Shown here: positions 1,266 through 19,426 of the stretch, piece by piece
Layout: each line of letters opens with the position of its first letter
How positions within the stretch are numbered: position 1 is the first letter of the stretch
NCBI GenBank assembly: GCA_016840185.1
Contig: JAEOSV010000294.1
Location: 1-19,896 of the forward strand
Direction of reading: 5' to 3'
Length of the DNA stretch: 19,896 nt
Source of the DNA: Candidatus Hermodarchaeota archaeon
GTDB lineage: Archaea > Asgardarchaeota > Hermodarchaeia > Hermodarchaeales > Hermodarchaeaceae
Translations under genes and position numbers: made by a program
Notes under the pieces: generated by a model
Databases searched by the model: none
What the model was told of the DNA's origin: nothing
What the model saw: only the letters and a program-made list of their open reading frames with translations

Positions 1266-1481
1266 AGCTCGAATCCCCGCTAAAGGATGTGTTGCTTGCC
1301 TAGAACAACGAAAACGCGAATAAAAAGCTTAGTTAGCGTAAAACAGAGCTTTTCCGTTACTTGAAGATATCGCAAGGGATTCTCAGAATATTTTTTCAGT
1401 ATTTGATAAAGGATGGCGACAAGCTTTTGTACCTTAATTTGTATCAGCGTAGACCAATAACCTTACGGGGATTTGAGTCAA

Positions 1482-3086
1482 ATGTTTAAAACAAGTTCAG
1501 AATATTTTCCTAAAGATGAAAAGGTCCTCAAAGACATGCCCTGGGTAGGACGTGTCGCTTTTGCGGACATGAAAGAAAAAGTCAAAGAAATCTCAACTCG
1601 CCCCATCATGTGTAGCAACTGTGGTGGAGCACTAACTAATCCCGATCTTATCCAAACATCTCCCACGAAAGGAAAGACCTTTCAATGCGAATTTTGTGGC
1701 ACTGTCAACGTCATTCCAAAGGAATTGATGCCGGGGACTGATCTCTCCGAATTTGTTTTGGGGCAACTCGCCCATGCTAAGCCCATTACCGAAGATACAC
1801 TACTAGCCGTAATTGATATTTCAGGTTCCATGGGTGGTGGGAAACTTGCAGCGGTCAAAGAGTCGCTGATTCGCACGGTGACTGATTTAAGTGTTAATGC
1901 TCCTGAAACCACCTTCGGCCTTCTTGCCTTCCACAGCGATGTCTACTGTTATGATGAGAACATGAAGAAAATCTTCACACTCGAAGGGGATATGCGGTAT
2001 AGTGTGGATGAAATCATCAAAGCAGTAGAGAAGAAAAAGAAAGACGTGGAATTAAAACCCCTGAAGAAGACGAAGAAAAAATGGGTTTCCAACATCCAAA
2101 AACTCCGCGATATCGACATGACGGCCTTGGGTCCTGCTATGGTCGCGGGATATGTCATTATGAAAGATCGAGGAGGACGGATTATACTCCTTACTGATGG
2201 TCTAGCAAATGAAGGCGTGGGAGCTCTTGAAGGGTCATCCACAACCGGAGCTCAACTGTATGAGGACCTGGCCATCAAAGCTGCGAATTCGAGCATCATC
2301 ATCGATGTGGTGGGTATCAAAGATCCCTCCGCTTTTATGGCCTTAGAAGCACTAGCTGTAATGCCCATGCAAACCGGCGGAACCATGTACTATGCACAAG
2401 CCTCCGAAATTGCTGACGCTATGAGCTCCTCAACCGGTGGTAAAATCGTCGCCCGCGGCGTGAAAATGCGTGTTATCGCCCCCGAAGACGTGGAACTCGT
2501 AGAAGTAAGTGGACTAGGTGGTGCAGAAGCCGATTCTCTCAGGAAGGGAATCCGCATTGGCTCAGTCACTGAAGACCGCGAAGTCTACGTTCGTCTCAGC
2601 CCTTCAGCCAAGGTGAAAGAGAAAGAGGTTCCTATCCAAGTGCAAGTCTCCTATATGGATGAGGAAGGCAATCAACGCATGCGCGTGATGACCAAACGTG
2701 TGAAAGTCACCGATGATGTCAAATCCATCATCGAAACCCTTGATACAGAACTTCCTGCCACTTATGCAGTACAACGAGCAGGTGAAGAGCAATACCGTGG
2801 CGAAGTAGCCAAAAGTAAGAAGATCCTCGAAAATACTCAAAATGCCTACAGAGCTGTACAGAACGTCGCACCAGCATCCAAAGCTAAAGCCTTTAAAAAA
2901 GTGGACAAGGTCCTTGACGAGGAAATCGCGGAAGCAGATCAGGTTGCTGAGCGACAAAAGGAAGAGATGAGCAAACGCTCAGTTGTTGGAGTAGCCCAAG
3001 CTGCACCGATTGCTGATGAAGATGCGGCAATGAGCATGCAACGAGCACGGAAGTCTAGCAAGGAGCTTTTCGAAGACGAAGAGTAA
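1482..3086 (+). CDS. Zinc-finger/vWA protein with Sec23/Sec24-like architecture
   Basis: This cytosolic protein of 534 residues has no signal peptide. Numbering here is from the TTG at 1473; subtract 3 for the ATG. Domains in order: a zinc finger C47-x2-C50 / C72-x2-C75; a vWA domain at about 108-325 with an intact MIDAS (D115-x-S117-x-S119, T217, D242) and a TGG-x-YY segment near 301-307; a beta-sandwich-like stretch at 386-412 with the pattern VSY...GNQRMRV.T; and a helical, charged C-terminus at 413-537. This order, and motifs such as L-x-NP between the cysteine pairs and FC-x3-N-x2-P after them, match the Sec23/Sec24 COPII coat family. Unlike eukaryotic members it keeps a metal-binding MIDAS and lacks a gelsolin domain. 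Sec23/24-family proteins have been reported from Thorarchaeota. The alternative is a generic zinc-ribbon vWA protein. I prefer the ATG at 1482: GGGGAT at 1467-1472 abuts the TTG but is well spaced for the ATG. Confidence 0.88.
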   Translation: MFKTSSEYFPKDEKVLKDMPWVGRVAFADMKEKVKEISTRPIMCSNCGGALTNPDLIQTSPTKGKTFQCEFCGTVNVIPKELMPGTDLSEFVLGQLAHAKPITEDTLLAVIDISGSMGGGKLAAVKESLIRTVTDLSVNAPETTFGLLAFHSDVYCYDENMKKIFTLEGDMRYSVDEIIKAVEKKKKDVELKPLKKTKKKWVSNIQKLRDIDMTALGPAMVAGYVIMKDRGGRIILLTDGLANEGVGALEGSSTTGAQLYEDLAIKAANSSIIIDVVGIKDPSAFMALEALAVMPMQTGGTMYYAQASEIADAMSSSTGGKIVARGVKMRVIAPEDVELVEVSGLGGAEADSLRKGIRIGSVTEDREVYVRLSPSAKVKEKEVPIQVQVSYMDEEGNQRMRVMTKRVKVTDDVKSIIETLDTELPATYAVQRAGEEQYRGEVAKSKKILENTQNAYRAVQNVAPASKAKAFKKVDKVLDEEIAEADQVAERQKEEMSKRSVVGVAQAAPIADEDAAMSMQRARKSSKELFEDEE

Positions 3087-13961: not shown

Positions 13962-15617
13962 CTATTCTTCTAGCAAAGAAACCTCACCAAAGCTCAACCC
14001 ATAGAGGTTATTGACCACTTCATCGATTTCTTGGTCAAGCCCTTTAGTCAGATACTTTGGATTTTGGACAACCAGCTTCGAGAGATCAGCGATTTGCGCT
14101 TCTTGATGCTGTGTTGGAGTTGCTAAGGGGATTTGTTGGAGGTAGGTAGCATTGTAACGGATGTAGCCACTGCGAAGATGAGTGGCAACAAAAAGGAGAG
14201 AGAAATAGGCATTGATTAGGCAGGAGTTGAGGAGACCTAACATGAAGTAGGGATCATAGGGGGTTCGAGTCTGAGTGATGTAATATACACGACCCAGAGC
14301 ATGCCCGGATTGGTCGAGGGCAACACGGAGTTGTTTAGCCATTCCAGCAATGACTAGTTTGGGTTCTTCAAAGTCACGCCATTGATCAGGTGAAACGAGG
14401 GTCGGCGTATACGAGAGGAATTTCTTCCGTCGAAGACTGTACCTTCGGACATCACCAGCATTGAGAAAGGGGAGTGTGGAGCGTTGGAGCTTCTTGCTGA
14501 GATTTTTGAACGCTGAGATGGAGATGAGTTGTTTAGTGAAACCTGTTTTTGCGATGCCACATCGAATATTGCAGGCTTGACCCAAGGGGATGGTGTTGTG
14601 AAGAAGTTTTCTAATTACAGAGAATTTCTCTTCAGTAAGGGCTGGAGCAAGGATGGAGTTGGGGAGCGTCGTGTAGTAATGTTGAGGAACATGGTTGAGT
14701 GTTAGGTTTTCTGATACAAGATCATCTGACGATGTGGGAGGTGATGGGACACGCACTTTGTTCTGTCGTACTTCTCCAGGAGTGCGTGGTTTTCGGATTA
14801 TGATGATGTGGGGATAGGTAGCGGCATCTTCGAATACGTTGAGATGAGAGAGGTCGACCATTTGTTCGATGACATAATTGTTAGCAATGGTGCTTCGAAG
14901 GACTCGACCATAATCGGCGGCGAGGATCTTATTACTGATGACGAAGCCCAGTCGCCCCCCGGTTCGAAGCAGAGATAATCCTAATTCGATGAAGGGGACG
15001 AGAATATCGAATTGTTGGTGGACGGTTCGATATCGGTTTCGAATGTATTCTTTCATGTCGAGTTCCATGGCTTTAATGCCAAGAAAGGGCGGATTACCTA
15101 CGATGGCGTCAAATCCTCCATCGCGCATCACCCAGGGATAGACCCGGTGCCAATCGACAGGATGTTGTTTCTTGATTTTCTTTCCAAAGATGCGTTGGGC
15201 GTTTTCATCCGTTTGGATAAGGCTGTTACCAAGTAGAACGCGTTGAGAAAAGTCGGAGGGAGAACCCAGAAGTTTCTTACTTGCCTGTTCGAGGTGCTGT
15301 TGACATTGTTTGAGGGCTTTTTTGTCCACATCAATACCATGAATGCTGTCGACAATGCTGCGAAGGAGTAACCGTTGATTGGTTGACGGAAACGTTTTGA
15401 CTTTCTCCGAAAGGAATCGAAGGGCTCCGAGAAGGAAAGCTCCATCCCCACAGGATGGATCGAGGACCGTGAATTCACCGAGGAGCCTGTCAGGATCTTC
15501 GTTGAGCGCAGGTCCCAGTGTGTGTCGAATGATGTAATCGACAGCCCATTTAGGCGTATAGAATTGCCCTAATCGTTTTCGCCGAACTCGCCCACTCTTC
15601 CGCCCTTTTGCTGCCAT
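13962..15617 (-). CDS. N6-adenine DNA methyltransferase, Eco57I/TaqI type
   Basis: This enzyme (551 residues) transfers a methyl group from S-adenosylmethionine to adenine in DNA. The N-terminal motif X region GQFYTP (17-22) is followed by motif I VLDPSCGDG (51-59), an acidic motif II region GIDVDKK (94-100) and motif IV NPPF (175-178). After these comes a Rossmann-fold end (GRLGFVISNKIL). The C-terminal half (about 300-551) looks like a TaqI-type target-recognition domain, with PFLNAGDVRRYSLRRKK and RSGYIRYNATYLQQIPL. The recognition sequence cannot be read from it. No endonuclease gene is adjacent, and the protein lacks an obvious N-terminal nuclease extension, so it appears to be an orphan methylase. 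The start ATG follows GGAGG and AAGGG. It lies 68 bases after the stop of the MFS-like gene and may share its transcript. Confidence 0.92.
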   Translation of the reverse strand: MAAKGRKSGRVRRKRLGQFYTPKWAVDYIIRHTLGPALNEDPDRLLGEFTVLDPSCGDGAFLLGALRFLSEKVKTFPSTNQRLLLRSIVDSIHGIDVDKKALKQCQQHLEQASKKLLGSPSDFSQRVLLGNSLIQTDENAQRIFGKKIKKQHPVDWHRVYPWVMRDGGFDAIVGNPPFLGIKAMELDMKEYIRNRYRTVHQQFDILVPFIELGLSLLRTGGRLGFVISNKILAADYGRVLRSTIANNYVIEQMVDLSHLNVFEDAATYPHIIIIRKPRTPGEVRQNKVRVPSPPTSSDDLVSENLTLNHVPQHYYTTLPNSILAPALTEEKFSVIRKLLHNTIPLGQACNIRCGIAKTGFTKQLISISAFKNLSKKLQRSTLPFLNAGDVRRYSLRRKKFLSYTPTLVSPDQWRDFEEPKLVIAGMAKQLRVALDQSGHALGRVYYITQTRTPYDPYFMLGLLNSCLINAYFSLLFVATHLRSGYIRYNATYLQQIPLATPTQHQEAQIADLSKLVVQNPKYLTKGLDQEIDEVVNNLYGLSFGEVSLLEE

Positions 15618-17285: not shown

Positions 17286-18554
17286 TTGCCTGTAAAAGAA
17301 ATTATCGTCCTCCGAAAAGGGGGTATGCCCTTGTTTAACTTCGCACCAGATGGAGCCCCGAAGCTTGATGCTCTCGTTGCCGGATTTCTCTCAGCTCAAG
17401 CGGGGTTTGCAGAGGAGATTGGAGAAGGCCAGATTCAGGTCGTCACCTTTGCCGAGAATAAATTTGTTTACGAGAGCCGGGCAGATATGCTGTTCATTAT
17501 TGTGATTGGGCAAGAAGATGATGAAAACATCTACCGTGTGATTATCAAAGAGATTGCCCAGGCTTTTGAACAGCAATATCGTGAGATTTTGAAAAAAGCA
17601 GTGGTCTCGTCTCATTTGTTTGTTGGGTTTCGCGAATATGTCATGGAAATCCTTGGAAAATACGATAAGATTCCTGAAATCCAGCAGCGATATCCCAGTG
17701 CAATTCTGCCTCCGGAAATCTTTCAGAAAATCGAAGAGCTTCTCAACATTATTGAGGGAAAGCAAGGAATTGTACGAACCGCTCTTCTTACGAGTGATGG
17801 CTTTGTAATTTCTTCCAAGTTACAGCAGCATGAGCTAGAGGTCGGATCAGGCCAAATTCGCCAATCGCGGAATATGGAGCTTCCGAGCTATTTTGCAGTG
17901 GCTCAAACCACATTAGAGGAAGGCACTAAACTCTTCGTGCATCAGGTTAAATCCGATTTAGTTCTTCTTGTTATCATCCGAGAAGATATGAAGGTTGGTC
18001 GTTGCGCGGAAGTGATTTCACCCCTCATCTATGGATTGGGGAATGTTGACTATTCCAGCATGGTCAAAGTCCAACCGAAAACAAAAGGAGCAGAGACATT
18101 CTCTGAGTTCGATGTTTTTACCTCTAATCCCGCGATGGAAAGCACACTGTTTGCTGAAAGTACGGGACAAGCGCGGGAATTTGAGAACCTCTTTGGAAAT
18201 GCCGGTCGAGAGGTTCTCCAAGCCATTGATGGTATCTCAACTGTTGAGGAAATCCGAACCCGAACCGGTGTCCATGGCAGACAGCTCTCTGAGATTCTGA
18301 GCTATCTTTCCAGCCGAGGATATATCCGTCGTGTTCAATTTTATCCGAAGCTAGTTGCTAGCGACCGAAGGTTTCTCGCTTATCTTGAAACCGTTGGACT
18401 TCCTCGAGACGAATACAAGATCCTAGAGGATGCCAAATCTTACTGTGATGGTAATAATTCCACCACGGATATCTCTCAGCGGATTGGGGTTGACGAAGAA
18501 AAGCTCATTGTGGTATTGCGGAAATTAGGCGAAAACGTTGAATGGTTGACCTAA
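17286..18554 (+). CDS. Longin-like / roadblock-like / winged-helix multidomain protein
   Basis: This soluble protein (422 residues) appears to have four parts. Residues 1-100 look like a longin-type domain: strand EIIVLRKGGMPLFNF, helix ALVAGFLSAQAGFAEEIG, strands QVVTFAENKFVYESR and MLFIIVIG, then a helix. Residues about 143-252 resemble a roadblock/LC7 domain, with helix PPEIFQKIEELLNIIEG, strand VRTALLTSDGFVISS and strand LVLLVIIREDMKVG. Residues about 298-353 form a winged helix (REVLQAIDGISTVEEI...LSSRGYIRRV), and 376-422 a second, degenerate one. Longin and roadblock domains regulate small GTPases in eukaryotes and are abundant in Asgard archaea; roadblock proteins also partner P-loop NTPases in bacteria. 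The next gene encodes a MinD-like ATPase, a likely partner. TTG 17286 is supported by GGTGA (17275-17279), six bases away. The domain calls rest on pattern recognition, not a profile search. Confidence 0.85.
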   Translation: MPVKEIIVLRKGGMPLFNFAPDGAPKLDALVAGFLSAQAGFAEEIGEGQIQVVTFAENKFVYESRADMLFIIVIGQEDDENIYRVIIKEIAQAFEQQYREILKKAVVSSHLFVGFREYVMEILGKYDKIPEIQQRYPSAILPPEIFQKIEELLNIIEGKQGIVRTALLTSDGFVISSKLQQHELEVGSGQIRQSRNMELPSYFAVAQTTLEEGTKLFVHQVKSDLVLLVIIREDMKVGRCAEVISPLIYGLGNVDYSSMVKVQPKTKGAETFSEFDVFTSNPAMESTLFAESTGQAREFENLFGNAGREVLQAIDGISTVEEIRTRTGVHGRQLSEILSYLSSRGYIRRVQFYPKLVASDRRFLAYLETVGLPRDEYKILEDAKSYCDGNNSTTDISQRIGVDEEKLIVVLRKLGENVEWLT

Positions 18555-18652
18555 ACCAATGCCTTAATAACGCGAAATTCTAACCTCGAATCTAGAGCCA
18601 AAATTCCAAGATCTATTCTTGAAGTGTTGTAATTCCTAAGGTGGAAAACCCG

Positions 18653-19426
18653 ATGGGCAAAATTGTCACAATCCACAGCTTTCGCGGAGGTACAGGCAAA
18701 AGCAACATAACAGCCAACCTTGCCATGTACACTGCCATGAAAGGACGAAACGTCGGGGTTATCGACACTGACATTCAAAGTCCAGGATTACACGTGCTCT
18801 TCGGTCTTGCTGGAAAACGGTTCAAATATACACTGAATGATTATCTCCGAAAGAAATGCACTATCGAAAAAGCCGCCATCGACCATACGAAGGCTATGAA
18901 CCTCAAGACCGGCAGTTTGAATGTTATTCCTGCCAGTTTGAACGCGGATGACATTTCCACCATTATTCGGGAAGGGTACGAAGTAGCAGATCTTCGCCGC
19001 GGTTTTAAACGCATCATGCAAGCAAAAGACCTGGATTACCTGTTTATTGACACACACCCAGGTTTGGACCAAGAAACGTTGCTCTCCATGGCAACCACCG
19101 ATTTGCTCTTTGTGATTATGCGACTAGACCAACAGGACTTTCTCGGCACAGCCATCACGCTAGCCCTCTCAAAGAAGCTTGGCGTTCCCAAGACCTACAT
19201 TGTGTGCAATAAATGCCCGGGAATTTATGACTTTGACAAAGTCAAAAAGGATATCGAGCAAGAATACGGTTTTGAAGTAGCCACAGTAGTTCCACTTTTC
19301 ACAAGGCTCATTGAAATGGGGAGCCGACAAATCCTCGTGCAAGTAAGCCCCAGTCACCTGTTTGCTCAGAATATTGACCAATTGTTCAAGCGTTGCGAAG
19401 CGACCCTCAATAACCAGAAAATCTAA
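18653..19426 (+). CDS. MinD/ParA-like P-loop ATPase
   Basis: This SIMIBI-class ATPase (258 residues) belongs to the MinD/ParA superfamily, which positions proteins, DNA or complexes on surfaces by ATP-dependent dimerisation. The Walker A region is SFRGGTGKSN (9-18 from ATG 18653). Arg stands where the deviant motif usually has its signature Lys (KGGxGKT). Switch I region DTDIQSPG and Walker B LFIDTHPG follow, and the family core VCNKCPG is near the C-terminal third. There is no clear amphipathic membrane-targeting helix at the C-terminus. The longest frame begins at GTG 18641, but this lies in AAGGTG, a ribosome-binding site, so ATG 18653 is preferred. The gene follows the longin-roadblock gene by about 100 bases on the same strand and is probably co-transcribed. 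A strong hairpin terminator ends the unit. Confidence 0.92.
   Translation: MGKIVTIHSFRGGTGKSNITANLAMYTAMKGRNVGVIDTDIQSPGLHVLFGLAGKRFKYTLNDYLRKKCTIEKAAIDHTKAMNLKTGSLNVIPASLNADDISTIIREGYEVADLRRGFKRIMQAKDLDYLFIDTHPGLDQETLLSMATTDLLFVIMRLDQQDFLGTAITLALSKKLGVPKTYIVCNKCPGIYDFDKVKKDIEQEYGFEVATVVPLFTRLIEMGSRQILVQVSPSHLFAQNIDQLFKRCEATLNNQKI

Follow-up and report, generated by a model that had tools for sequence, protein, structure and literature searches.

The COPII vesicle coat uses a Sec23/Sec24 heterodimer, and Sec23 is the GTPase-activating protein of Sar1. COPII homologues in the Asgard archaea were reportedly first described by Zaremba-Niedzwiedzka and colleagues in 2017. Such homologues have since been cited as earlier findings and called vesicle-trafficking proteins (PMC10307638), the Sec23/Sec24 families of Thorarchaeota have been described in the same terms (PMC7997004), and Sec23/24 homologues have been recorded in both TACK and Asgard archaea (PMC7613921). 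ArnB of Sulfolobus, a phospho-regulated motility regulator of the same fold, has a split beta-sandwich and a core in common with Sec23/24 (PMC12852372). In the Eukaryota, a CPRas/VWA family (cpRAS-VWA; "circularly permutated Ras protein 1") has been described, along with stand-alone family proteins that have no cpRAS domain (PMC2430557); the 2008 cpRAS paper describes circularly permuted fusions.

Here we describe a gene of Candidatus Hermodarchaeota archaeon at positions 1482 to 3086 of a 19,896-nucleotide stretch of DNA (assembly GCA_016840185.1, contig JAEOSV010000294.1), which we call the window. From the sequence alone, an original prediction had proposed that this gene encodes a Sec23/Sec24-like protein with a functional-looking metal-ion-dependent adhesion site (MIDAS). 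The predicted fold of the protein matches Sec23/Sec24, its metal-site residues are conserved, and it is kin to both the CPRas/VWA proteins and COPII Sec23/24. We give about even chances to the view that it is a cytosolic scaffold of the Sec23/Sec24 superfamily, which has kept its metal site, is coupled to a small GTPase, and is of the forerunner type of COPII.

Architecture and metal site of the protein

A single open frame occupies the locus on the + strand, running from the ATG at 1482 to a stop codon that ends at 3086, and it contains every motif that the original prediction had listed. The features of the gene and its 534-residue product are as follows:

1482..3086, + strand: coding sequence of the MIDAS-intact Sec23/24-like protein, 534 amino acids plus stop
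1467..1471, + strand: putative ribosome-binding site GGGGA, 10 bases 5' of the ATG, judged from the sequence
1482..1559, + strand: N-terminal strands, residues 1-26 (predicted strands 2-4, 8-10, and 21-26)
1611..1697, + strand: zinc finger C44-x2-C47 ... C69-x2-C72; four Cys in 27/27 family members; zf-Sec23_Sec24 at 17.9 bits, under the curated cut-off of 25
1788..2450, + strand: vWA/Sec23 trunk domain, about residues 103-323; PF04811 at residues 110-306; model range common to vWA chains
1815..1829, + strand: MIDAS motif 1, DISGS (D112, S114, and S116), by conservation
2121..2123, + strand: MIDAS Thr T214 in the family motif TALGPA, by conservation
2196..2198, + strand: MIDAS Asp D239 in LLTDGLAN, by conservation
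2451..2711, + strand: beta-sandwich with GNQRMRVMT, about residues 324-410; predicted strands; Sec23_BS (PF08033) at 26.7 bits, under the curated cut-off of 33.5
2718..3083, + strand: helical region and C-terminal tail, about residues 413-534 (predicted helices 413-418, 423-438, 442-460, 465-501, and 508-522)

The Pfam matches stand in the same order as in Sec23/24. In the profile search that had been proposed as a check, the Sec23_trunk model PF04811 scored 44.4 bits, above its cut-off of 27, the finger and sandwich models stayed below theirs, and the Pfam helical model found no match in this protein, the helical region of which is short. As predicted, a gelsolin-like domain is absent; the Pfam model for it has no match in the protein, and the C-terminal end of the structural model aligns to Sec23A residue 622-623. 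The top fold matches of the predicted structure are Sec24 and Sec23, rather than generic vWA proteins, and the fold alignment runs from end to end with the sandwich included. The strands of residues 1-26 should, by comparison with ArnB, form part of a split beta-sandwich.

The simplest competing explanation is that this is a generic vWA protein with a zinc ribbon, which resembles Sec23/24 only through the common vWA fold. In its favour, the Pfam VWA model scores 35.4 bits, the trunk is the only model of the Sec23/24 set above cut-off, and an NCBIfam search returned no family name for the protein. We nevertheless rejected it on the fold matches and on the profile comparison given below, and consider it very improbable. 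The matches are not confined to VWA and zinc-ribbon families, and the C-terminal half is predicted to fold as a beta-sandwich followed by helices, so that the homology with the Sec23/Sec24 core, which had been drawn from architecture, is now borne out by Pfam, fold matches, and profiles.

Alignment to a common profile shows the complete set of five MIDAS residues in all 83 prokaryotic proteins that span the site (89 examined, six of them fragments) and in all 80 eukaryotic family proteins that do so (84 examined, four fragments); they are likewise intact in the family frame of 31/31 and 24/24 loci in two overlapping sets. Together with the four finger Cys, D112, S114, S116, T214, and D239 are invariant in a 27-sequence family alignment. 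The COPII site is degenerate, as had been claimed: in the tree alignment, which is the basis of this statement since the family profile does not bring the COPII rows into register at the site, all six COPII chains keep the first Asp (D112), all six have T, S, or G in place of the last (D239), and the other three positions vary. Sec24A and Sec24B read SALGPAL at the position of the family TALGPAM, and LPTLGVGAL of Sec24A faces LANEGVGAL of the window protein, with GVGAL common to both. With these remnants in Sec24, the COPII subunits seem to descend from a protein of the TALGPA type.

To judge from its residues, the pocket of the window protein probably binds an ion; the equivalent site of ArnB holds sodium (PMC12852372). 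An ion bound at the MIDAS would take an acidic or phosphorylated residue of a partner protein.

Relatives in the Archaea and Eukaryota

The window protein is 90-93% identical to its named Hermodarchaeia relatives (loci L001-L003). At least 84 prokaryotic homologues are present among the matches listed, and beyond the near kin they are mostly 32-41% identical to it; their source names include Promethearchaeota, Odinarchaeota, Thorarchaeota, Lokiarchaeota, Freyarchaeota, Jordarchaeum, and Asgard group. Two of them carry the names of bacterial metagenome-assembled genomes (MAGs), Armatimonadetes (P0078) and Eremiobacterota (P0079), which may stem from mis-binning. The searches scored only the candidates that shared the most words (7994 prokaryotic and 7997 eukaryotic), and the families therefore have more members than are given here. 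The window protein has all the features of the Asgard family, namely full-length similarity, the zinc finger, the TALGPA and LLTDGLAN motifs, and the MIDAS. Of the 227 genomes in the GTDB phylum to which a Hermodarchaeum genome belongs, 99 match the family profile (E 1e-5); by hand count, 78 have a long match (E 1e-118 or better), and the other matching genomes give partial vWA hits or fragments. Each of three Hermodarchaeia genomes (G001-G003) has one match at E 0.001, a search that a strongly diverged second copy could escape. As a presence test, PF04811 recovered the gene in only one of the three genomes that hold it and in none of 14 controls, and surveys with family models may accordingly miss the Asgard gene. 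A further group of full-length relatives (P0169-P0173), which came up in the eukaryotic search, has no assigned host, and one of them lies on a 2.26 Mb contig.

Against the hidden Markov model (HMM) of the Asgard family, 69 of the 70 scored CPRas/VWA members reach 143-239 bits, four Sec24 chains 53-66 bits, and two Sec23 chains 29-32 bits. By these sequence scores, the closest eukaryotic relatives of the window protein are the CPRas/VWA proteins, and not Sec23/24. Among the literature matches listed, in a search that lay outside bioRxiv and most subscription journals, we found no paper that links the Asgard proteins to CPRas/VWA or describes the Asgard MIDAS, and no functional study of CPRas/VWA proteins. 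The Asgard-CPRas/VWA link would thus be new; the Asgard Sec23/24-like proteins themselves were already known.

By our own count from Pfam annotation, 17 of the 84 eukaryotic rows listed carry Ras-type GTPase domains and five carry actin. P0122 (named Planoprotostelium fungivorum), P0108, and P0126 have a GTPase of canonical motif order fused to a MIDAS-intact Sec23/24-like core, and the N-terminal domain of P0122 is nearest to Rab-1A (E 1.9e-78). The members with an actin domain are P0143 (named actin 11 of Pelomyxa schiedti), P0150, P0165, P0166, and P0168; the domain stands in front in P0143 and P0150.

For the phylogenetic analysis, the prokaryotic rows were thinned to 27 and the eukaryotic rows to 70 by shared words, seven partial eukaryotic rows were dropped, and every second row plus chosen ones gave 37. 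In the resulting 70-row tree (27 prokaryotic, 37 CPRas/VWA, four Sec24, and two Sec23 rows), one branch separates the prokaryotic rows from all others (99/97), a second does so for the CPRas/VWA rows (100/99), and a third for Sec23 plus Sec24 (100/100); the three groups meet at a three-way node. Sec24 and Sec23 each form one side of a strongly supported branch. It should be mentioned that the program warned of long COPII branches and uneven letter composition. A second tree was built from 16, 17, 6, and 6 hand-picked rows, in which six Asgard paralogues of the ArnB-like or vWA-sandwich kind served as the outgroup; here the Asgard family, CPRas/VWA, and COPII stand together on one side of a branch (96/95), and the best tree places COPII beside the Asgard family with a support of only 82/76.

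Profiles were compared with each other over the vWA plus sandwich core. The Sec24 profile matches the Asgard family at E 8.6e-19, Sec23 at 1.6e-14, CPRas/VWA at 3.1e-12, and the ArnB-like paralogues at 2e-4; the Sec23 profile matches Sec24 at 1.6e-14, the Asgard family at 6.3e-11, CPRas/VWA at 3.6e-7, and the ArnB-like paralogues at 0.066. Both coat profiles match the Asgard family better than they match CPRas/VWA or the ArnB-like proteins, and to this extent the earlier suggestion of a plausible ancestral form survives.

The same trees bear on a second explanation, in which the protein is an ArnB-like, phospho-regulated signalling scaffold that controls motility or the expression of genes, and in which the fused zinc finger stands in for ArnA. 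ArnB/ArnE (VWA2) of Sulfolobus (PDB 8s05 and 5a8j) does have the fold of the window protein. However, the chain has no Pfam FHA domain match, and the Asgard archaea have separate ArnB-like paralogues (L037 and L038, assigned by length and score) that branch apart from the family (96/95). We regard this explanation as unlikely. More broadly, loci L035, L036, L037, L038, L039, and L040 encode ArnB-like and other vWA-sandwich-helical-looking Asgard proteins without an N-terminal zinc finger, and the L040 protein has a zinc ribbon at its C-terminal end.

Small GTPases and the gene neighbourhood

In the reading that we prefer, the protein would be a soluble scaffold tied to a small GTPase. The coupling to a GTPase would be the feature common to Sec23, as the GAP of Sar1, to the eukaryotic Ras-type fusions, and to the Roadblock/MglA-like neighbourhood of one Asgard clade. 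In that clade, recognised in part from the 70-row tree, the genes follow one another as Robl / family gene, Robl, Robl, MglA/Arf-like GTPase: the first neighbour, adjoining the family gene, is a divergent Roadblock/LAMTOR5-like gene, the two Roadblock genes after the family gene are Robl_LC7, and the second of them also matches the LAMTOR3 model. The first Roadblock gene was found by tblastn at 25 of 31 loci; these are the best-scoring loci, and the Roadblock-bearing clade is consequently over-represented among them. A Ras-like GTPase gene adjoins the family gene or lies within about 5 kb of it at L051, L064, and L065, which we estimate to be roughly the chance level given 20-30 such genes per genome.

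Several observations weigh against this reading. The Roadblock/GTPase neighbourhood holds in one clade, and not in Hermodarchaeia: tblastn did not find the first Roadblock gene at the window, L001-L003, L026, or L030, and found it at only six of 20 wider hand-picked loci. Relatives of the second Roadblock gene occur in 204 of the 227 Asgard genomes and those of the GTPase in 190, far more than the family gene, for which 149 genomes lack a long match (by hand count; the genomes may be incomplete). In the places compared, such relatives also adjoin each other away from the family gene. In addition, the approximately unbiased (AU) test does not reject the alternative branching orders of the three groups (p 0.27 and 0.23). 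In raw scores against the Asgard HMM, Sec24 and Sec23 (29-66 bits) are no nearer than the ArnB-like/vWA-sandwich paralogues (47-60 bits), and the Asgard profile matches these paralogues at 3.6e-29, better than Sec24.

Because the cluster is limited to a single clade, and the Roadblock and GTPase genes commonly have relatives in Asgard genomes whether or not the family gene is present, we dropped it as proof of function and treat it as a lead from one lineage. The Roadblock (LAMTOR3-like) and MglA/Arf-like GTPase genes lie side by side at G008:C23:6019-7068, G001:C22:85787-86842, and G196:C55:45642-46864, in G001 and G008 distant from any Sec23/24-like gene, and this looks like a core Asgard pair of GTPase and regulator. 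The main text of a study of Asgard GTPases and Roadblock proteins (PMC10933270) makes no mention of Sec23; the study states that such genes of MK-D1 are generally not in shared operons.

The third explanation is a working pre-COPII coat subunit, which would be recruited by an Arf/Sar1-like GTPase, polymerise on the membrane, and bud vesicles. It draws on the Sec23/24 fold predicted along the whole protein, on the earlier naming of Asgard COPII homologues as vesicle-trafficking proteins (PMC10307638 and PMC7997004), and on the many GTPase matches in the three Hermodarchaeia genomes (22, 29, and 26 to the Arf family; 23, 30, and 27 to the Ras family), with models that are not specific and also match 8 and 11 of 14 control genomes, respectively. 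On the contrary, a single copy was found per genome where COPII uses a heterodimer, the gelsolin domain is absent, the intact MIDAS points to a ligand binding that COPII has lost, and two family members bear bacterial names. The coat role that went with the original prediction is weakened further by the nearer CPRas/VWA relatives and by ArnB, a motility regulator, and we think it improbable, somewhat more so than the ArnB-like scaffold.

Among the neighbours of the family gene in the window are genes for a PhoU-like protein, a C_GCAxxG protein, and an acyl-CoA dehydrogenase; nothing in this neighbourhood points to trafficking, and several flanking genes are common to the window, L001, and L002. 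Elsewhere in the window are the following genes:

3-1265, - strand: N-terminal portion of a large protein that looks secreted; the frame continues past the edge of the window
13962-15617, - strand: Eco57I-type DNA methylase with a TaqI-like specificity domain
17286-18554, + strand: 422-amino-acid protein resembling longin/Roadblock domains plus a winged helix; the only Pfam match is TrmB, below cut-off
18641-19426, + strand: ParA/MinD-like ATPase adjoining the 422-amino-acid protein

A large gene in the same orientation lies upstream of the family gene at L001, L002, and L054 (cluster C20), and by eye it resembles the gene at 3-1265.

Comparison with known systems and the origin of COPII

For the origin of eukaryotic vesicle coats, we tentatively propose, at somewhat less than even chances, that the Asgard family is, among living proteins, the closest kin of a stem protein that was duplicated in early eukaryotes into the MIDAS-intact CPRas/VWA line, partly fused to Ras/Rab GTPases, and the COPII pair; its ancestral job would have been the GTPase-linked, metal-dependent binding of a protein ligand, and not coating, and the coat would have come with a dead metal site and an added gelsolin domain. 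In our preferred reading, COPII would have arisen in the eukaryotic stem from a protein with a zinc finger, a vWA domain with a complete MIDAS, a split beta-sandwich, a short helical region, and no gelsolin domain, which was duplicated, lost its metal site, and acquired the gelsolin domain. If COPII arose from a metal-dependent, GTPase-linked binding protein that still exists in Asgards and many protists, the step from binding to coat becomes testable, and the function of the CPRas/VWA proteins, neglected so far, bears on the origin of the coat.

Compared with COPII Sec23/Sec24, the window protein has the N-terminal four-Cys zinc finger (C44, C47, C69, and C72 align with the fingers of six COPII chains), the vWA-type trunk, and the beta-sandwich. 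It differs in its shorter helical part, in the missing C-terminal gelsolin-like domain, in its complete MIDAS, in the one copy found per Hermodarchaeia genome versus two diverged paralogues, and in the position of its family outside the Sec23 and Sec24 clades. We rejected direct membership of COPII on the gelsolin domain, the metal site, the single copy found, and the tree. The COPII sample was thin, namely six chains from human and yeast; of 2867 further proteins, the 120 listed all resembled vertebrate Sec23A.

ArnB/ArnE joins a vWA domain with a MIDAS, a split sandwich, and a helical bundle in one chain that has no zinc finger; the finger is carried by ArnA, a distinct protein that also has an FHA domain, whereas the window protein has it in the same chain. 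The bacterial vWA-sandwich protein 4fx5 (Catenulispora acidiphila), a 426-residue chain, is a fold match of lower Z. The CPRas/VWA proteins share the zinc finger, the Sec23-trunk vWA with an intact MIDAS, the TALGPA and TDG motifs, the sandwich, and the helices. They have an insert after the first MIDAS motif where the Asgard proteins have a gap, and some members carry N-terminal cpRAS, Rab-like, or actin domains; the window protein lies outside their clade, and with only 43 residues ahead of the first finger Cys it lacks the N-terminal cpRAS domain. The other Asgard Sec23/24-like proteins, such as P0027 ("SEC24 family transport protein [Candidatus Thorarchaeota archaeon SMTZ1-45]"), are full-length homologues with the same domains and MIDAS. 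There is no fundamental difference from them, and the window protein is the Hermodarchaeia version of this family.
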